Assembly: GCF_015353075.1 (NCBI RefSeq)
Contig: NZ_CP064187.1
Coordinates: forward strand, 2,976,001 to 3,040,000
From: Rhizobium sp. 007
Lineage (GTDB): Bacteria > Pseudomonadota > Alphaproteobacteria > Rhizobiales > Rhizobiaceae
DNA length: 64,000 nt
Reading direction: 5' to 3'
Position numbers and translations under genes: made by a program. This document shows, piece after piece, positions 8,828-17,572 of the stretch. The notes beneath the pieces are model-generated. The model worked only from the letters and a program-made list of their open reading frames with translations, did not search any database and had not been told where the DNA came from. Position 1 is the first letter of the stretch; the number at the start of each line of letters is the position of its first letter.

Positions 8828-9150
8828 CAGCGTTCGCCCTCATCCTCGGCACCGAGATCGACGAACAATTCGTCGAAAGCCGTGCGGCCGGGTTGCGCGC
8901 GTCGCTCCTCTTTGTCGGTCTCACTGACCAAGGCACGGACTTCCAGGGCGCGAGAACGGGGCACGAGTACGGGAACAAGGTCAAGCGCATCGCATATCTC
9001 GGCGAATAGAGTGAGCCGATCGCGGCCCGATCGATCACCGCTCAGGTCGCGCTCGAGTTCGGAGATCCGCGCTCGATCTCGCCCCACCCGCATGGCCAGT
9101 TGTGGTTGACTCAGGCCGCGTCGCACCCGGGCTTCGTGCAGTTGCGTGCC
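8827..9150 (-). pseudogene. hipB: HipB-like XRE antitoxin, 5' end lost
   Basis: Minus-strand frame with a Cro/C1-type helix-turn-helix (LHEARVRRGLSQPQLAMRVG then RISELERDLSGDRSGRDRLT) and an acidic C-terminal tail ending just at the hipA start. Coding similarity continues upstream of the nominal GTG at 9126 to about 9150, where it is replaced by IS6 transposase sequence on the other strand. The original start codon and promoter were thus probably removed by the IS event. Whether any antitoxin is made from an internal GTG is unclear. Confidence 0.7.
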
Positions 9151-9512
9151 GATACCAAGGCCGCCAGGCGACTGCTGTGCAGACTACTGAAGAAGCAAGG
9201 CCTACCACCCGAGCGGATCATCACCGACAAACTCCGCTCTTATGGAGCGGCAAAGCGGGAAGTCATGCCAGCGATCGAGCACCGGTCCCACAAAGGCCTT
9301 AACAATCGAGCAGAATATTCTCATCTGCCACTGCGAAAACGCGAACGGGAGATGCAAGGGTTCCGATCAGTCGGCGGTTTGCAGCGTTTCATATCCGTTT
9401 TTTCCGAAATCTCTTCGTCGCACCGCATCAGAAACGCTCAGCCCTTGCCAACCACATCCATCGTGTCCGCGCCCTGGCCCACTGGAAAGCCGTGACCGGC
9501 GCGCTTGCCTGA
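9150..9512 (+). mobile_element. IS6-family transposase, 5'-truncated and frameshifted
   Basis: The plus strand encodes the C-terminal half of an IS6-type DDE transposase: TKAARRLLCRLLKKQGLPPE, RIITDKLRSYGAAKREVMP (with the second Asp), HRSHKGLNNRAEYSHLPLRK (with the terminal Glu), RKREREMQGFRSVGGLQRF. At about 9405 the frame changes and continues as NLFVAPHQKRSALANHIHRV and AHWKAVTGALA to TGA 9510-9512. The N-terminal half and left end are missing, so the element is dead. Its left border coincides with the broken 5' end of hipB. Confidence 0.85.
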
Positions 9513-9832: not shown

Positions 9833-11992
9833 ATGCGAAAAAAAGCCCCTGCAATGGTCCCTGCGGATCTCGTCGGAGCTTGCCAGCCGCGGCGATGGTC
9901 CGTGCTGCCGGATCCTACTGCCCGCCGGAACATGTCGAGGGCAGCGGCGGTATTTTTCAGCCTCCTGCCGACCTTGGGATTCGCTGGAGATCAGCCCCCC
10001 GACTGGAGCCTGAGCGCCCGTGTCGTCGCGGTCGGGCTGTTCGACGTGGCCGGCGTGCGTGAAGTGGGGCGCTTTCATGTCGGTGGACCGATACCGGGAA
10101 ATCCGGAATTCCTCATGACGACGCGCGAAGGGCGGGTGCTCGATCCGCTGAGGGTTCTGGTGGCGGTGAGCAGCAATTTCGGCGCTCGCCCGAGCGACCC
10201 CAGAATCAGGACCGGCGCAATCCTGTCCATCGATCCCCGCGGGGGCAAGTCGGGCGGCACCATAGTCGTTTCGGAAGACATCACCGGCGACATTGGAGAG
10301 ACCCGGGTCCAGCTCTACACTGCACAGAGCGACCAGTTCCTCAACCGCCACTACAATGCCGGGGCGCGAACAGCGCACCTCACAGCTGCATCCGGACCGC
10401 GATACATTTCCATCAACAACGCCTTCGGAAGGCCTTGGATCGCGAACGCGCCAAATGGGATGGGTCGCGAGGGCAGCGTTAGCGTTGTCGACCCCGACGG
10501 AGCGCCGCTCGCCAACGCGCCGAGCCACAAGGCCGGCGGCGTATTTGTCGGCCGGCTAACCGATCGCGAGCGTACGCCGAAAGGACAGCCCAGCGGATGG
10601 CTCGCTAGGCTGCTGAACTATCAGGCGAGTGGCCAGTTGACGCCCGGCGGGCTGCAGACGGGCGCGCTCGGAACGGCGTTTCTCGGTCCGTCGCCGGACG
10701 GCAGCGGTTTTGCCGTGTTCGCCGCAGTCACGGCGGATGGCGGCGTGGTTCAGATCCATGTCCAGGATGGCGTGGACGGCCTGGCCGCTCCCGGCACGGT
10801 GAGCGCCGGCCGCAGTATTGACGACGATCCCGGCGTCATCGGCATCGCCTTCAAGTGGAACCCGGATCGTGTCCTCTACATCGCCGATCCCGGCCGTGAC
10901 CGGCTGGTGCTGCTCGAACTAGAGGACGACCGGCGGCATTTCACGGTCGCTCGGACCCGTACGATCTCGTTGCCGGAATTCGACCGCCCGGTCGACATCG
11001 TCGCCGCCATACCCGAAATCGCCAATCCGCATTTCTCGAGCCACACGACGCTTGCCGGCGGATCCGATCTCCTCGTCGCTAACCGCGGCGACGGCTCGCT
11101 GCTTCGCGTTAGCCAGGACGGCCGGCTTCTCGCCCGAGCGACGATCGATGTTCCAGGCGTCGGACCCCTCGGCCCAGATCGTCTTCGCGCGATCGCGACG
11201 TCGGCGGACGCGCAGCGGATCTGGATAACGATAGGCGGCGAGGTTCCTGGATTCCCGGGCCGCGAAGGGGCGCTCCTCGAGGTCGCTGCCTTCGACGAAC
11301 ACGGCGCGGCGGCGACGAAGACGACTCAGGAGATGCAAAGCGCGGCTGCCGACACCAATCTCGCGGCACGCGGAAGGCAGTTGTTTCAAGCCGACTTCAC
11401 GCCGCAGACGGGCCTCGGCCCATTATTCAATGCACCATCTTGCGTGGCCTGCCATCCCGGCCCCGGCGGCGCCAGCACCGATGAAAGCCATTTTGCGCGC
11501 AGGATAGCCTCTATGGATCCGGAGTCGGGCCGAATGGTCGCAATCGATCATCCCAACAGTCCGGTCGCCAGACGCTATGCGCTGGGCGATGGCATCGGCA
11601 CCACGACTGTCTCGGCGGCAATGCCGCGCGAGGCCAATGTGATCTCGCTGCGCATGCCGCTTGCTCTCTACGGCATCGCCAAGATCGACGAGATACCTGA
11701 CAGTGTCATCGAAGCACAGGCTGTCAGCAAGGGCGACGGAATCAAGGGCCGGGCACATCATGTCGTCGACGCCAACGGCGCGTCGCGGGTTGGCCGATAC
11801 GGCTGGAAGGCCGACATTGCTCGCCTCGAGGAGATGGTGGCGGACGCCTTCGCAAAGGAACTCGGCGTCACCAGCGCAATCGTCGACCGCCGCGACACGG
11901 TCACGCAGCCGGTCGAGCAGGATACCGGCCAGATCCACGCGGTGAGTTCCTATCTGCGAACACTCAGCCTATCCGAGGAGGCCAAGCCATGA
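9833..11992 (+). CDS. Beta-propeller protein fused to the first heme half of a DUF1111 diheme protein
   Basis: A predicted exported protein of 719 residues. A hydrophobic signal (MSRAAAVFFSLLPTLGFAGD) is followed by a YncE-like beta-propeller region of about 430 residues (repeats such as RVLYIADPGRDRLVLLELED and GSDLLVANRGDGSLLRVSQD). The last ~200 residues match the N-terminal half of DUF1111/MauG-like diheme proteins: LGPLFNAPSCVACHPGPGG with heme motif CVACH at 537-541, LRMPLALYGIAKIDEIPDSV, and VGRYGWKADIARLEEMVADA. The second heme half expected in one chain is absent here and instead sits at the end of the next protein. Start 9833 has GGAG 8 bases upstream; 9932 is the alternative. It overlaps the next gene by 4 bases (ATGA). 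Confidence 0.75.
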   Translation: MRKKAPAMVPADLVGACQPRRWSVLPDPTARRNMSRAAAVFFSLLPTLGFAGDQPPDWSLSARVVAVGLFDVAGVREVGRFHVGGPIPGNPEFLMTTREGRVLDPLRVLVAVSSNFGARPSDPRIRTGAILSIDPRGGKSGGTIVVSEDITGDIGETRVQLYTAQSDQFLNRHYNAGARTAHLTAASGPRYISINNAFGRPWIANAPNGMGREGSVSVVDPDGAPLANAPSHKAGGVFVGRLTDRERTPKGQPSGWLARLLNYQASGQLTPGGLQTGALGTAFLGPSPDGSGFAVFAAVTADGGVVQIHVQDGVDGLAAPGTVSAGRSIDDDPGVIGIAFKWNPDRVLYIADPGRDRLVLLELEDDRRHFTVARTRTISLPEFDRPVDIVAAIPEIANPHFSSHTTLAGGSDLLVANRGDGSLLRVSQDGRLLARATIDVPGVGPLGPDRLRAIATSADAQRIWITIGGEVPGFPGREGALLEVAAFDEHGAAATKTTQEMQSAAADTNLAARGRQLFQADFTPQTGLGPLFNAPSCVACHPGPGGASTDESHFARRIASMDPESGRMVAIDHPNSPVARRYALGDGIGTTTVSAAMPREANVISLRMPLALYGIAKIDEIPDSVIEAQAVSKGDGIKGRAHHVVDANGASRVGRYGWKADIARLEEMVADAFAKELGVTSAIVDRRDTVTQPVEQDTGQIHAVSSYLRTLSLSEEAKP

Positions 11993-13419
11993 GCCTCGCG
12001 CTGGCGCTCTCCCATGCACCGGAACGAGCGCGCTCGGTCTTGCCTGGCGTCATTGTGGCCGCTGCGCTAGCCCTTGCGGCCGGCTGGATCGCCGGCGGAC
12101 TGGGCGAGCCCCTCTCGCGCAACCCCATCCTCGTCGCCATGCTCTTCGGCCTCCTGATCGGCAACAGTTTCGCCTGTCCAGACGCATTGCGTCCGGGGCT
12201 CGACTTCACCAAGCGCTACCTGTTGCGGCTGGCCGTGGTGCTGGTCGGCTTCCGCATCACGATGCGGCTGTTTCTGGATCTGGGGTTGATGCCGCTCGGG
12301 GTGGCAGCCATCGAGTTGGTCCTAGTCGTGACCTTGCTCTACGCCATCGCGCGCAAGCTGTTCAGGCTCGACCCCGAGATCGCGCTGCTCGTCGCAGTCG
12401 GCAGCGCCGTGTGCGGCGCCGCGGCTATTCTTTCCATGGCGGCGCTGATGCGTGCCCGCGACCAGAACGCCGGTGTCGCCATCGCCTTGATAACGCTGAG
12501 CGGCACCATGGCGCTGCTTGCCTATCCCGTCATATTCCTGAATGGATGGCTGCCGCATCTCGACGACCGCCTCTACGGCGTGTTTGTCGGGGCGAGCATC
12601 TTCGAACTGGCGCAGGTCTACGGCGCCTCCTTCGCCGTCTCCGAAGGGGCACTCAACACCGCGACGCTCGTCAAGCTCAGCAAGGTGCTGATGCTCGTCC
12701 CGCTTCTGCTTGCCGTCGGCCTGCACTTTCGCGGCCGCAACAAGGCGCAAGAGGCAGCACCGATACCGTTCCCCTGGTTCATCGTTGCATTCATTGGCGT
12801 GGTGATCGTCAATTCGGAGATCACCCTCAATCCGCAGCTGCGCCGCATCATCCTCGATGTCGACCAGTTCCTGTTCCTGATGGTGATGGTGGCGCTCGGC
12901 ATCACCACCCACATCGCTCGCCTAGGAGAGGCTGGCGGCGCGTGGCGACTGATCGGGGTGGGTTTCGTCGGGGTGGTCCTGTCGGCCGCCATAGCCTATG
13001 GCGCTCTGATACCCTTCTCGGCGGCCTTCCGGGCCGCATCGCCGTCGTCGAGCGCAAGCGCGATGCTTGGCAGCCAGGGCGGAAGGCTCTTTGCCTCGGT
13101 CGGTTGCGCCAAATGCCATGTGCCGGCGCTCGAGGGCGTCAGCGGCGAGGTCCGGCTCTACTCGGATCTGCTGCTGCACGACATGGGACCGGCGCTAGAC
13201 GACAAGATTGTCCAGGGCGACGCCATCGGTGCCGAATGGCGGACCGCTCCACTCGTCGGCATCCGCCTGCGCGAACGCTACCTGCATGACGGCCGCGCGA
13301 TCACGTTGCGCGATGCGGTCCTCGCCCATGGCGGGACGGCACGGATCGTGCGCGACCGCTTCTTCGATCTTGGCGATGCCGACCGCCAGGCGATCCTCGA
13401 TTTTGTGGCCAAGCTATGA
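11989..13419 (+). CDS. YeiH-like sulfate-exporter permease fused to the second heme half of a DUF1111 diheme protein
   Basis: A 476-residue protein. Residues 1 to about 345 form a ~10-helix membrane protein of the UPF0324/YeiH putative sulfate exporter (PSE) family, with the typical LVAMLFGLLIGNSFACPDAL, CGAAAILSMAAL and FELAQVYGASFAVS segments. After a short Ser/Ala linker, residues about 362-476 are the C-terminal half of DUF1111: GRLFASVGCAKCHVPALEG (heme motif 373-377), LYSDLLLHDMGPALDD, and EWRTAPLVGIRLRERYLHDG with DAVLAHGG. Family permeases end near residue 340-350 without a heme domain. The overlap ATGA at 11989-11992, with GAGGAGG upstream, implies coupled translation with the preceding gene. 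I infer that the two heme halves assemble in trans in the periplasm. Confidence 0.82.
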   Translation: MSLALALSHAPERARSVLPGVIVAAALALAAGWIAGGLGEPLSRNPILVAMLFGLLIGNSFACPDALRPGLDFTKRYLLRLAVVLVGFRITMRLFLDLGLMPLGVAAIELVLVVTLLYAIARKLFRLDPEIALLVAVGSAVCGAAAILSMAALMRARDQNAGVAIALITLSGTMALLAYPVIFLNGWLPHLDDRLYGVFVGASIFELAQVYGASFAVSEGALNTATLVKLSKVLMLVPLLLAVGLHFRGRNKAQEAAPIPFPWFIVAFIGVVIVNSEITLNPQLRRIILDVDQFLFLMVMVALGITTHIARLGEAGGAWRLIGVGFVGVVLSAAIAYGALIPFSAAFRAASPSSSASAMLGSQGGRLFASVGCAKCHVPALEGVSGEVRLYSDLLLHDMGPALDDKIVQGDAIGAEWRTAPLVGIRLRERYLHDGRAITLRDAVLAHGGTARIVRDRFFDLGDADRQAILDFVAKL

Positions 13420-13464
13420 ACCGGCTGCATCACGCCACCGCTATGGTTCACCGGTCGAATCGCC

Positions 13465-14168
13465 ATGTATGAAGCTGCCATCGCAGAGCTGAGCCATCTC
13501 GACGGACCCGACCTGCTGGCGCGGCTCGTCACCGACCTGTTCGATGGAAACATAGCGCTCGTATCCTCGTTTGGCGCGGAATCCGCGGTTCTGCTGCATA
13601 TGGCGGCCTCGATCGACCGTTCGCTCCGGTCATTACGCTCGACACCGGAAAGCTGTTTGCAGAAACGATCGCTTGTCGTACGCAAATGACAGCTCGGCCT
13701 GACCGATCTGCGCGTCGTGGCGCCCGACGTCGATGTCTTGCGGGTGCTCGACGGTGCCGGATCACTGCACCGCCGCGATCCGAACCAGTGCTGCCATGTC
13801 CGCAAGGTTCTGCAGCTCGAAGAAGCCCTAACCGGTTTCAAGGCCTGGATTTCCGGTCGCAAGCGATATCACAGCGGGGTTCGCGCGGATGTTTCGACGC
13901 TCGAGGAACACGACGGACGCCTGAAGATCGACGCGCTTGCTCGCTTCACACGCCAACAGATCGAGGCCTATCTCGATCGCTATCACCTGCCCCGGCATCC
14001 GCTCCTCGAAAAAGGCTATCTTTCGATTGGCTGCGTCCCCTGCACGGTCGAATGTGGCCGCGAGGACAACCCTCGCGCGCGGGCCGCTGGAGCGGATTGT
14101 CGAAAATGGAGTGCGGGATCCATCGGTCGCCCTTTTCCTCTCGCAATTCGGCCGCCTCCGCCTCCTGA
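13465..14168 (+). pseudogene. cysH: cysH-type phosphoadenylyl/adenylyl-sulfate reductase, frameshifted
   Basis: Conserved pieces of an assimilatory APS/PAPS reductase occur in successive frames: NIALVSSFGAESAVLLHMAA (P-loop-like site), then PVITLDTGKLFAET in a second frame from about 13630, then LGLTDLRVVAPDVDVL, NQCCHVRKVLQLEEAL and KGYLSIGCVPCT in a third from about 13695. After about 14090 comes AGRWSGLSKMECGIH, containing the catalytic ECGIH, to TGA 14166-14168. The CC and C..C iron-sulfur cysteines are all present. Three small indels break an otherwise complete gene of about 234 codons. It follows the exporter-heme gene by 45 bases, supporting a sulfur theme. It could be a real pseudogene or a sequence-quality problem. 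Confidence 0.8.
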
Positions 14169-14326
14169 TTTCCGGTTGCGCAGCACCCCGGTCGGCCAAT
14201 GCCGCTTCCACTGCAAAGGCACTACTAGGAATTGTCGCATTATTGGGCTACGCTGAGGCTAATCTGGGCGGCGGGACGGGTCACGGTGACATGACCGGCG
14301 TTCGAGGATCAGTGGAGCGGAGCCCC

Positions 14327-17300
14327 ATGCCCCCCCTAGACGCCGTCGAAGCCGACGCGAGGCGCCCGCTCTCGGCCCCCAACCGGATCGCCAAACTGGC
14401 GGCGCCGCGGAGCGCCAGGATACTGAGGCGAAACCGCGTTCTCGAAGCGATCGACCGGACGCCGCGATCTGGCGTCTGCTGGCTGGCCGCGCCAGCCGGA
14501 TACGGCAAGACGACCGCGGTCATCGACTATCTCGAAAGCACCAATGCTCCGCATGTGTGGTTCCGGATCGACGAGGGCGATCAGGACATTGCGCGATTCT
14601 TCCAGTATCTGACGCACTCACTCAACCCGGCCGCTACGATTGGAGACATGCCGGTTTTCGGCGTGGAGTACGCCGAGCAGCCAAAGGAGTTCGCCAGACG
14701 CTTCTTCAGAGATTATTTCGCACGGCTGAAGCCCGGGACAATTCTGGTCCTCGATGATCTGCACGACGTCGACACACCTGAGTTCCGGACGATTCTTTCC
14801 GTGATGTTCCGGGAACTGCCGGACACGGTTCGGTGCATCTGTGCCTCACGAACGCTGCCGTGCGAAGAACTGGGCGAGCTCACCATCAAGGGCCAGATGC
14901 AGGTCGTCGATAGGTCGGCGCTCGAATTCTCGATCGCGGAAGCGCGCGATCTCGTCAAGCTGCGTTCGAAAGACGCTGCTGCCTGGATCGATGTCGAGGC
15001 GGCGCGGGGCTGGGCGGTCGGGCTCGTGCTGCTTGCGGATCGCGGTTCGACATTCGGGCCGGACACAACTGCGTTAGGGTGGAGGTGGGATGTCGAGCTC
15101 TCTGATGTTCTCGGTCGTCATTTCTTCCTCACACTTCCCGCCGCCGACCAGGACATGCTCCTGAAGCTGAACTTGTTGCCCGAAATCAGCGCCGAGCTAG
15201 CGGACGTGATGATAGGTTCGAGCGAGGCGGGAAGGTTGCTCGACAGACTCTACAGGCGGCAGTTGCTCGTCACGCGTACAGAAAGCAGCCGTGATATCTT
15301 TCACCTGCATGACCTTTTGCGGGAGTTCCTCGACCGACGTTTCGCGCAGTACGTCTCCAAGGAGGAGCAGAAGTCGTTCAAACGGAGGGCGGCGAAGGTG
15401 CTTGTGGAAGCCGGCCGGCATGATGACGCGATACCCCTTGCACTGGATGCTGAGGACTTCGTCTGGGCAAGCGAGCTCATGCTGACCCGCGCGGAGGCCG
15501 TGCTGGCGCAAGGACGCCGCGCTACCTTCATCGAATGGACCGGCCGGTTACCAGAAACGTTGATGAACGGCTGGCATTTCTATTGGCTTGGTGTAGCCCA
15601 TATGCCGGATGACGCTGCGGCGGAGCGCTGGCTTTCAAGGGCATGGCAGGCGTTTGGTCGGACCGACGATCTGAGCGGCCTTTGTCTCACGGTATCACGT
15701 GCGGTGCTGGTCAAGACAGACAGTTGGCGGACCTACGAAGGTCTTTCCGTGTGGACCCGTCGAGCGTCCGAGATCATCGAACGCGGCCTTCCGGAACTTC
15801 CGCCGGTAGAAGCGATGCTCGTGCGCATCGGCATGGTGCGTGCTCTGAACTTCGCCGAGGAATACTATCGCAGCAGCACAGCCGGACAGGTGCTTGAAGC
15901 CCAACTCCTGGAGCGGTTGACCAGAAATCCCGAGCAGGATCCGAGCTTATTGCGGTTGCTTGCGAGCGAATCGCTGATCGAGCATTCGGTGTCGACCATG
16001 GATGCCGATCTGTTCACAAAAGCTGTCGACAGCGTCGTTGATGATTTAAGCGACAAGAACGTGCTGCCATGGGTTCTCGGCATGTGGCTGGTCGCCTTTG
16101 GAGCCAAGAGCGGCCGCTATTTTCCCTACAAGAGAAGGGACTTTCCCTATCCGTCGGCCGAAGCCGCGCTGCGAGCGGCGATCGCGATCGGCGAGCGCGA
16201 TTCCCTCAGAAGCGTGGAATTCGGGGGACTTTATCATCTTCAGATGCAGATGAAGTTCCGTAGCGATTTTGCCGAATTCCACAAAGTGGTCGGGCGTCTG
16301 GCCGAGATCGCCGACAGCCGTTTCACCACGCAGGTAGCCGTTGTCGCCGACTGCCACGCGACCTTATACGCGAGGCAAGGCGACTTCACGGCAGCCTACC
16401 GGGAGTGCGAGCGCTTCATGGCGGCCATCGAGGCCGCGAACGAGCCGATGGTCGAGCGCTGGCCACATTACATTACAAAGTTCCAGGTGCTCCTTGCGGA
16501 CAGGAAGCCGCAGGACGCCGCTGCTCTGCTAGTGGACCTTCTGCCGCGGCTGGACGGCGGTGCTCGCAAGCGGACCGAGATATGCATCTTGGCCGCGACG
16601 GCGCTGGAGAGTTTTTGGGACGACGATCCGCACTATGGCGACCGTCTGAAGGCCTTCCTGGACGAACTCCGCAGCACGAACTGGCCGATGGTGCTTCTCA
16701 ACCTTCCTGAGCTGCTCGGCGAACTGCTTGGCGATGCGCTGGAGCGCGGCATCGAGCCCGAGCTCTGCCGGTCGCTGATCCGGGAACGCCTGCTGGAAGT
16801 GCCGCGGCAGCGGCCCGCGGCCTGGCCATGGCCGCTCAAGGTCTACGTTCTCGGAGGCTTTCGGCTCGAACTCGATGGAAATCCTCTCCATCTCGGTGCC
16901 AAGCCACCGACGAAAGCCCTCGACATTCTGCGGGCGCTGGCGATCTCGAAAAATAACACCTGCTCGCTGGAGACTCTTCAGGACTGGCTGTGGCCCGATC
17001 TCGACGGCGATAAGGCGCGTGCGGCATGCGAGCAGGCACTTCATCGGCTTCGCAAGCTGCTGGGACGGACGGACCTCATCGTGCAGCGCGAAGGCAAGCT
17101 TCGCGTGGCATTGGACAAGGTCTGGGTCGACCTCGCCGACTGGGAAGCACGGCTCAAGGCTGTCGCGACAGCCAATGGAGAGGCGGTTGGAATACGTCCG
17201 GACGCGGAGGCGCTCTTCCTGGCATTCCCCGGTCCTTTGTTCCTGCACGAGCGAGTCAGTTCTTGGTCGCTCGCTGCCGCTGAGAAAGTGCGTCGCGATC

Positions 17301-17572
17301 TGATCGATCTCGGGTTGAGGCTTGGCCAGCGGCTGGAGACGACCAACAACTCCCATGGGGCGCGTTCCATATATCTTAGGACGTTGGACTTTTATCCGGA
17401 TGCCGGCCCCATCTGCAAAGCGCTGATCAAGGAGCGACTGGCGCGCCATGATTTCGAAGGCGCGGTTGACGACTACGCACGCTACGAGCGGGCACTGCGT
17501 GCTGCCGGAGAGACAGCGGCGGCCGAAATACGCGCCCTGGTCGAACCCTACCTCATACGGCAGACAGGCTGA
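14327..17572 (+). CDS. STAND NTPase-SARP (BTAD) transcriptional regulator
   Basis: A 1081-residue regulator. The N-terminal MalT-like STAND NTPase has a Walker A site in AAPAGYGKTTAVIDYL (about residues 55-63), a Walker B-like ILVLDDLHDVDTPEF, and a winged-helix HLHDLLREFLDRRF. A long TPR-like helical arm follows. From about residue 837 there is an OmpR-type winged helix (LKVYVLGGFRLELDGNPLHL, TLQDWLWPDLDGDKARAACE, QALHRLRKLLG) and then a bacterial transcriptional activation (BTAD) domain to the end. The DNA-binding part is therefore at the C-terminus, opposite to AfsR-type SARPs. Start 14327 has TGGAGCGG 7 bases upstream; 14291 is an alternative. Targets unknown; the sulfur/heme locus just upstream is a candidate. 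Confidence 0.85.
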   Translation: MPPLDAVEADARRPLSAPNRIAKLAAPRSARILRRNRVLEAIDRTPRSGVCWLAAPAGYGKTTAVIDYLESTNAPHVWFRIDEGDQDIARFFQYLTHSLNPAATIGDMPVFGVEYAEQPKEFARRFFRDYFARLKPGTILVLDDLHDVDTPEFRTILSVMFRELPDTVRCICASRTLPCEELGELTIKGQMQVVDRSALEFSIAEARDLVKLRSKDAAAWIDVEAARGWAVGLVLLADRGSTFGPDTTALGWRWDVELSDVLGRHFFLTLPAADQDMLLKLNLLPEISAELADVMIGSSEAGRLLDRLYRRQLLVTRTESSRDIFHLHDLLREFLDRRFAQYVSKEEQKSFKRRAAKVLVEAGRHDDAIPLALDAEDFVWASELMLTRAEAVLAQGRRATFIEWTGRLPETLMNGWHFYWLGVAHMPDDAAAERWLSRAWQAFGRTDDLSGLCLTVSRAVLVKTDSWRTYEGLSVWTRRASEIIERGLPELPPVEAMLVRIGMVRALNFAEEYYRSSTAGQVLEAQLLERLTRNPEQDPSLLRLLASESLIEHSVSTMDADLFTKAVDSVVDDLSDKNVLPWVLGMWLVAFGAKSGRYFPYKRRDFPYPSAEAALRAAIAIGERDSLRSVEFGGLYHLQMQMKFRSDFAEFHKVVGRLAEIADSRFTTQVAVVADCHATLYARQGDFTAAYRECERFMAAIEAANEPMVERWPHYITKFQVLLADRKPQDAAALLVDLLPRLDGGARKRTEICILAATALESFWDDDPHYGDRLKAFLDELRSTNWPMVLLNLPELLGELLGDALERGIEPELCRSLIRERLLEVPRQRPAAWPWPLKVYVLGGFRLELDGNPLHLGAKPPTKALDILRALAISKNNTCSLETLQDWLWPDLDGDKARAACEQALHRLRKLLGRTDLIVQREGKLRVALDKVWVDLADWEARLKAVATANGEAVGIRPDAEALFLAFPGPLFLHERVSSWSLAAAEKVRRDLIDLGLRLGQRLETTNNSHGARSIYLRTLDFYPDAGPICKALIKERLARHDFEGAVDDYARYERALRAAGETAAAEIRALVEPYLIRQTG

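Follow-up and report, generated by a model that had tools for sequence, protein, structure and literature searches.

The stretch analysed here (the window) comprises 64,000 nucleotides of Rhizobium sp. 007 (NZ_CP064187.1, positions 2,976,001–3,040,000), and all coordinates refer to it. Two genes occupy the region of interest, 9833..13419. ORF1 (9932..11992, + strand) encodes a putatively secreted beta-propeller protein whose C-terminal end is the N-terminal heme half of DHOR. ORF2 (11989..13419, +) encodes a PSE/YeiH-type permease that carries the C-terminal heme half of DHOR. The TGA stop of ORF1 (11990–11992) overlaps the ATG start of ORF2 (11989–11991), forming the sequence ATGA (11989..11992, +). 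Both open frames and their overlap lie where a sequence-only reading of this DNA had placed them, and so do the motifs towards the ends of the genes, CVACH and GRYGWKAD in ORF1 and CAKCH and YSDLLLHDMGP in ORF2. The ORF1 frame is also open from ATG 9833 and GTG 9776. Because M34 is the first residue of a Sec-type signal peptide and the database copy P0121, at 686 aa, has the length of ORF1 counted from ATG 9932, ATG 9833 is probably the wrong start and ATG 9932 (M34) the likelier one. Residue numbers of ORF1 are counted from ATG 9833.

The signal peptide of ORF1 is probably of the Sec type (9932..9985, +; residues 34–51), judged by inspection of the sequence by eye and by a helix at residues 28–43 of the structure model. 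It is followed by the beta-propeller (9989..11296, +; residues about 53–488). None of the Pfam models reported a propeller, and its assignment by the sequence-only reading is backed by an AlphaFold2 model and by structural comparison. The rows of that comparison cover residues 53–638 and the propeller occupies the whole list, so its support is for the propeller; the heme half is mostly of low confidence in the model. The heme half itself (11360..11989, +; residues about 510–719) was placed using Pfam and alignment with intact DHORs. Its match to DHOR PF06537 is only just above the cut-off (23.5 bits against 22), with the best stretch at profile positions 204–301. The heme 1 motif CVACH (11441..11455, +; residues 537–541) is present in 36/36 aligned proteins. 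Sequence searches of solved structures with ORF1, profile A2 and the intact DHOR L114 returned nothing up to E 1.

The permease part of ORF2 (11989..13023, +; residues 1–345) matches PF03601 over residues 20–316 at 3.9e-66 (223.5 bits, cut-off 24.5), and thus shares its domain with YeiH and the putative sulfate exporter family PSE. The first re-entrant motif and K229, common to both, are strongly kept in the fused proteins. ORF2 differs from the family in three respects: it scores below the cut-off of the NCBIfam YeiH subfamily TIGR00698 (166.7 against 232.6 bits), it has lost conserved permease residues, and it adds a C-terminal heme domain (13054..13416, +; residues about 356–476). The heme half matches PF06537 over residues 361–475 (2.6e-20, 72.8 bits, cut-off 22; profile positions 363–498), in agreement with the DHOR alignment. 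None of the plain PSE sequences runs more than 5 residues beyond the end of the permease part. The heme 2 motif CAKCH (13105..13119, +; residues 373–377) is conserved in 29/29 fused proteins. H447 (13327..13329, +), also in 29/29 and aligned with a Met of 1iqc, is the likely distal ligand of heme 2. The structure model of ORF2 has a mean pLDDT of 47 and supports no claim.

The same split was sought in other genomes, as the earlier reading had proposed, and it recurs in distant relatives; the pair is present in rhizobia and in Burkholderiales relatives. PF03601 and PF06537 occur together in 119/120 ORF2 homologues among the matches listed, of 1605. ORF1 lies directly upstream of ORF2 in all 18 distinct loci that hold the upstream stretch, and a 4-base overlap, ATGA or GTGA, joins them in 17 of the 18. 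The homologue lists of ORF1 and ORF2 have 31 contig sizes in common, against a mean of 0.5 by chance. Because it recurs in distant relatives, the split layout is not due to chance; on these comparisons the pair is an old recurring module and not a local event. No relative was found among viral contigs, and none of 63 matches in plasmid records spans >80% of the query.

A frame change between the permease and the heme domain had been named as one of two observations that would overturn this layout; the frames are as described in 17/18 distinct loci, so this check does not overturn it. A single-chain version occurs in one metagenome-assembled genome (L009). Its frames are merged by a difference of one base close to where ORF1 ends, and for this reason it was treated as a sequence or assembly difference. 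An artefact or a decaying locus would agree with this merged copy, with the broken frame of the cysH-like neighbour in the window and with a transposase piece upstream of the locus. Such an explanation is hardly credible given the same layout in 18 distinct loci and a dN/dS of 0.10–0.19 across four segments, which indicates purifying selection. In two loci (L019 and L020), alternative starts just past the ORF1 stop count against the explanation preferred below.

Pfam matches and alignment with intact DHORs confirm that ORF1 and ORF2 each carry one half of the same diheme family, arranged in the order given by the sequence-only reading, with the break between the genes at the interdomain linker of the intact proteins. 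Intact DHOR/DUF1111 proteins, including a copy in the same genome (C1:4239639-4240943) and the compact DHOR P0289, have the same heme halves in the same order, the same Trp and the same three further His in half 2. Those seen are single chains with neither permease nor propeller. Because each protein of the pair matches one heme half, the pair is a split derivative and not an ordinary DHOR member. Separate midpoint-rooted trees of the two halves, with 10 split proteins (out of 36 and 29) and 20 intact ones as tips, each placed the split proteins in one clade beside P0289. Because P0289 was picked by its N-half similarity, only its placement in the C-half tree is independent; it has a long branch and ranks seventh by mean C-half identity. 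The trees agree with a single interruption of one ancestral DHOR gene. Insertion of a permease gene at the linker, as the sequence-only reading had proposed, is one possible order of events. A search of 200 genomes with P0289 gave matches in 43, all in open frames of at least 455 aa, and no additional compact form. N-halves without a propeller gave 49 matches among 1207 candidates, many of them on short contigs.

Every aligned split protein keeps its CXXCH motif and, in the respective half, W658 or H397, M399, H433 and H447. GR(Y/F)GWKA is found in 36/36 and the three further His of half 2 in 29/29. Because the CXXCH pair, the putative inter-heme Trp and the three half-2 His are invariant, the halves of ORF1 and ORF2 are likely to dock and reassemble the diheme unit in trans. 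A different possibility is that each heme domain acts alone, heme 2 as the route by which electrons leave the permease, ORF1 as a separate, transiently docking electron carrier. The disulfide-type Cys residues of the intact N-half are missing from the split form, which fits such independence, but the invariant Trp and GR(Y/F)GWKA, the break exactly at the linker and the 4-base overlap make it quite improbable.

A cytoplasmic C-terminal heme domain had been named as evidence against the proposed layout. The hydropathy and K/R profile of ORF2 agree with an N-in, C-out topology, as published for the PSE family in the accessible text of PMC8396727 and PMC12880088, so the heme tail is very likely periplasmic and this check, too, does not overturn the layout. 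The published topology places both hemes in the periplasm and would account for the stop and restart between the genes, since a secreted N-half cannot be followed, within a single polypeptide, by a permease whose N-terminus is cytoplasmic.

No match to PF03150 (CCP_MauG) was obtained up to E 1 for either ORF, nor at E 0.001 across the genome. MauG has a propeller-bearing partner. The split pair shares two c-heme domains and an inter-heme Trp, putative in the pair, with MauG and the bacterial cytochrome c peroxidases; in the accessible text of PMC10094543 and PMC6405878 these differ from it in carrying both hemes on one chain, with no permease and with the catalytic Gln retained. Alignment with the peroxidases places W658 (11804..11806, +; 36/36) at the inter-heme Trp position and Met668 (11834..11836, +) at the site of the Gln. 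This position holds Met in 34/36 split proteins and Ala and Ile in one each; it is Gln in 19/19 aligned intact DHORs and Phe in P0289. The acid is kept as well (Glu676, Glu in 36/36). Retention of W658 and Glu676, and the Pfam annotation of DHOR as a putative peroxidase, are consistent with a peroxidase or MauG-like oxidase that reduces H2O2 or modifies a protein and needs the permease for nothing but anchoring. However, variants of the Gln in bacterial peroxidase are described as inactive (PMC10094543 / PMC6405878, as far as the accessible text goes), and a bare anchor would not need the strongly kept re-entrant motif and K229. We consider an anchored peroxidase improbable.

Residues typical of the permease family have been lost from the fused proteins. 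His205, Val211 and Arg232 of plain PSE proteins are replaced in 29/29; the His of the second re-entrant motif is present in 90/92 plain and 0/29 fused proteins, and Arg at 232 in 92/92 and 0/29. The substrate is therefore possibly not sulfite. Loss of the peroxidase Gln, attachment of the heme domain directly to the last permease helix and the lack of a conserved partner enzyme beside the pair among the matches listed would suit a redox-gated permease, in which the trans diheme responds to the redox state of the periplasm, or to a ligand that the propeller may bind, by opening or closing the permease, and oxidises no substrate. A mere sensor would have no need of the invariant Glu and the Trp bridge, and we regard gating without oxidation as unlikely.

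Our preferred explanation is a two-subunit, membrane-tethered diheme redox system, to which we give even chances as a whole. ORF1 would leave via Sec and pick up heme 1, and ORF2 would enter the inner membrane so that its N-terminus faces the cytoplasm and its heme 2 domain the periplasm. Docking of the halves would then re-form the ancestral diheme unit; W658 would bridge the hemes for electrons, and the propeller would sit beside the permease exit. The exported substrate may be a small anion, with sulfite or another sulfur oxyanion related to it as plausible cases; at the exit the hemes would oxidise it or take its electrons for the respiratory chain. A function in small-anion (sulfur?) export tied to periplasmic heme redox is a guess. 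Equally tentative is the idea that the transporter has its own c-type diheme enzyme, assembled in trans, to which substrate is handed directly, so that export and oxidation (or redox gating) form one coupled step. On this reading, a permease gene would have landed within the linker of a gene for a compact DHOR, and membrane topology would have forced a stop and restart. The propeller profile matched no further genome among 289, which was counted as support for the preferred explanation.

To our knowledge, physical linkage of a transporter to a redox enzyme is rare, and a literature search found no description of a split diheme/permease pair. The closest precedent found is the urate oxidase PuuD (PMC4562309), which, in the accessible text, has a different membrane domain (DUF989), a single-heme domain and no split diheme partner. 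The pair offers a model, open to direct testing, of how export and oxidation could be coupled. If the preferred explanation is true, the pair gives a functional clue for DHOR/DUF1111, a little-studied heme family, and an example of membrane topology forcing a gene into two pieces.

Two-heme c-type units are not known to oxidise sulfite, which counts against the preferred explanation. The accessible text of the relevant reports states that yeiH is required for sulfite resistance (PMC12880088) and that Sinorhizobium meliloti oxidises sulfite in the periplasm, the exporter being unidentified (PMC3511301). The SorT system of S. meliloti resembles the proposed role in that sulfite from the cell interior is oxidised after its export to the periplasm, with electrons passing to cytochrome c; it differs in using a molybdenum enzyme and separate carriers (PMC3511301, accessible text). 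The split pair is a candidate for the missing sulfite exit step in some rhizobia. The sulfur link that the sequence-only reading drew from a neighbouring cysH-like gene is weakened. Among 19 loci searched, this gene adjoins the pair in 12/12 Mesorhizobium-type loci (11 others and the window, where its frame is broken) and in 0/7 other fused-type loci, one of which (L020) ends inside ORF2. A sulfur operon was set aside on this distribution; the permease residue losses also weaken the sulfur link. Elsewhere in the genome there is another cysH-like gene (34% identity), and sulfite dehydrogenase PF03404 has a single marginal match, in a 171-aa frame. When 11 representative loci were compared all against all, the matches listed included no neighbours conserved across groups beyond ORF1 and ORF2. 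A MobA-like gene lies beside L019, and L016 and L020 have in common an NHL/Ig-domain ORF and another ORF that is kinase-like in L016.

ORF2 (11989-13419, + strand), a YeiH/PSE permease (PF03601) ending in the C-terminal heme half of a DHOR (PF06537, DUF1111), had 1605 homologues among 8000 scored candidates. PF03601 and PF06537 were both found in 119 of the best 120 of these, the query's own entry among them; the remaining one, P0046 (383 aa), has PF03601 only. ORF1 (likely 9932-11992, +), a secreted beta-propeller ending in the N-terminal heme half, had homologues 540-768 aa long (best 120 of 792). The listed homologues of the two ORFs shared 31 contig sizes; a shifted-size control gave 0.5 on average and never more than 3. 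Among named genomes, 18/80 loci kept were of the fused type (permease plus heme tail): 11 labelled Mesorhizobium, one labelled Rhizobium tropici (L015) and six betaproteobacterial (L016-L021). L113, from a later search, is part of L015 letter for letter and was left out of locus counts; the genome that carries these 4422 identical bases belongs to the same genus as the window. With the window counted and L021, which starts within ORF2, excluded, 18 distinct loci include an upstream stretch, and ORF1 is the immediate upstream neighbour of ORF2 in all 18. The ORF1-ORF2 pair is a real, conserved two-gene system whose architecture is secure.

The overlapping start and stop codons (ATGA) described in the sequence-only reading recurred as a 4-base overlap in 17/18 distinct loci, with GTGA replacing ATGA in L017 and L020. 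An alternative start lies just past the ORF1 stop in L019 and L020. In the sole exception, L009 from a MAG, ORF1 differs by a single base close to its end (L009 7960-8004), which places both ORFs in one frame. Given this recurrence, the check for a frame change did not refute the permease/heme layout.

Alignment with intact DHORs, which carry both heme halves in one chain, located the break at the interdomain linker, as had been proposed. ORF1 stops within the final helix preceding the linker (VSSYLRTLSL, VTFYSANLAVPA in the intact L114), and the ORF2 tail opens on the segment that runs up to the second CXXCH. A set of 92 automatically excised plain PSE permeases, which have no heme tail, reach no further than 5 residues past ORF2 position 345, so the heme domain has been added. 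Midpoint-rooted trees of 10 split tips (from 36 available N-halves and 29 C-halves) and 20 intact ones, built separately for the N-half and the C-half, each placed the split proteins in a single clade (support 0.999 for the N-half, 0.982 for the C-half) beside the compact intact DHOR P0289, which is on a long branch and was picked by N-half similarity; its placement is independent in the C-half tree only, and it ranks seventh by mean C-half identity. This result agrees with an origin of both halves from one gene. P0289 (370 aa) lacks the longer first-half segments seen in the aligned intact DHORs; like the split proteins, it also has no Trp ahead of the final His.

According to PMC8396727, PSE proteins occur in two forms, one with 9 TM helices and one with 11, each having two further re-entrant helices and an N-in orientation; the YeiH C-terminus is reported to be periplasmic (PMC12880088). 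Hydropathy and K/R content were profiled along 29 fused sequences and showed a charged stretch (311-320) ahead of the last helix (~321-341). The profile agrees with the published N-in, C-out topology and with a predicted periplasmic, rather than cytoplasmic, heme tail. As a single chain, a secreted N-half leading into a permease that starts inside would need an extra helix, which a stop and restart would avoid.

The reference for the heme halves was the set of positions that are near-invariant among the 19 intact DHORs, being shared by 18 or 19 of them. In at least 90% of the proteins, 22/41 were kept in ORF1 (36 proteins) and 31/46 in ORF2 (29 proteins); the 19 and 15 positions below this level include two Cys present in the intact N-half, and the Trp that precedes the final His. 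Both CXXCH motifs, ORF1 W658 (counted from the ATG at 9833) and ORF2 H397, M399, H433 and H447 are invariant in the split proteins. In the alignment of the intact-DHOR profile with the solved peroxidase 3o5c (E 0.004 for the stretch), the DHOR Trp falls on the inter-heme Trp; the Gln 10 residues and the Asp 18 residues further on fall on the catalytic Gln and Glu, respectively. In the N. gonorrhoeae peroxidase (Trp98, Gln108, Glu118), Gln108 and Glu118 variants are reported inactive (PMC10094543). The acid position is Glu in 36/36 split ORF1 proteins, and the catalytic Gln position is Met in 34/36, which makes a standard peroxidase unlikely. Met668 of ORF1 may be a ligand of heme 1. The residue of 1iqc aligned to H447 (E 0.033) is a Met that serves as axial ligand to the second heme there, which suggests that heme 2 is bis-His. 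The diheme unit is likely reassembled in trans from ORF1 and ORF2. Among the open full-text papers listed, judged by title and abstract start, none described a YeiH/PSE permease with a DHOR/diheme layout; in line with the sequence-only reading, the system is undescribed as far as could be found.

C142, G143 and K229 are common to all 29 fused (alignment A1) and 92 plain PSE sequences compared. Three other positions differ: 205 is Tyr or Phe in the fused form vs His in 90/92 plain PSE, 211 is Tyr vs Val in 85/92, and 232 is Lys vs Arg in 92/92. Because of these changes, the ORF2 substrate may differ from that of YeiH.

Sulfite resistance in Salmonella is reported to require yeiH (PMC12880088). 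In S. meliloti, SorT is reported to oxidise internally made sulfite in the periplasm, with the exporter still to be found and a cytochrome c and a pseudoazurin as possible electron acceptors (PMC3511301). Together, the yeiH role and periplasmic oxidation by SorT make an 'export and oxidise' device plausible in rhizobia. A cysH-like gene (PAPS reductase family) is linked in 12/12 Mesorhizobium-type loci, the window counted, vs 0/7 others, one of which has no downstream sequence. In the window it lies 44 bases past ORF2 (13464-14175, +) and is frame-broken; its relative is in one frame in 10/11 other Mesorhizobium loci and frame-split in L004. The proposed sulfur link is weakened by the gene's restriction to Mesorhizobium-type loci among those searched and by its broken frame here. 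The pair is followed by a 1211-aa ORF (13937-17572, +), a very large putative regulator with weak AAA and Trans_reg_C matches, all below cut-offs; in L015, the upstream side carries a different AAA/LuxR regulator. An IS240-type DDE transposase piece (9100-9492, +) lies upstream of ORF1.

The fused form is patchy in distribution. In overlapping genome draws, the ORF2 profile found it in 1/398 genomes of the phylum (1e-70), 1/385 of the class, 1/297 of the family (1e-90) and 2/148 of the genus (1e-90), the second of these holding the Rhizobium tropici locus. Some match at 1e-40 occurred in 59 genomes of the class, with only the window's own genome below 1e-60, and among 289 genomes of the class the propeller profile matched the window's locus alone. 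The window's ORF2 shares 88-90% identity with Mesorhizobium ORF2s vs 65% with that of Rhizobium tropici, which would fit horizontal transfer; going by the genus of the L113 genome, the window may be a Rhizobium with a Mesorhizobium-like pair. Compared with locus L007, dN/dS was 0.18 for the propeller, 0.19 for the N-half, 0.17 for the permease and 0.10 for the C-half.
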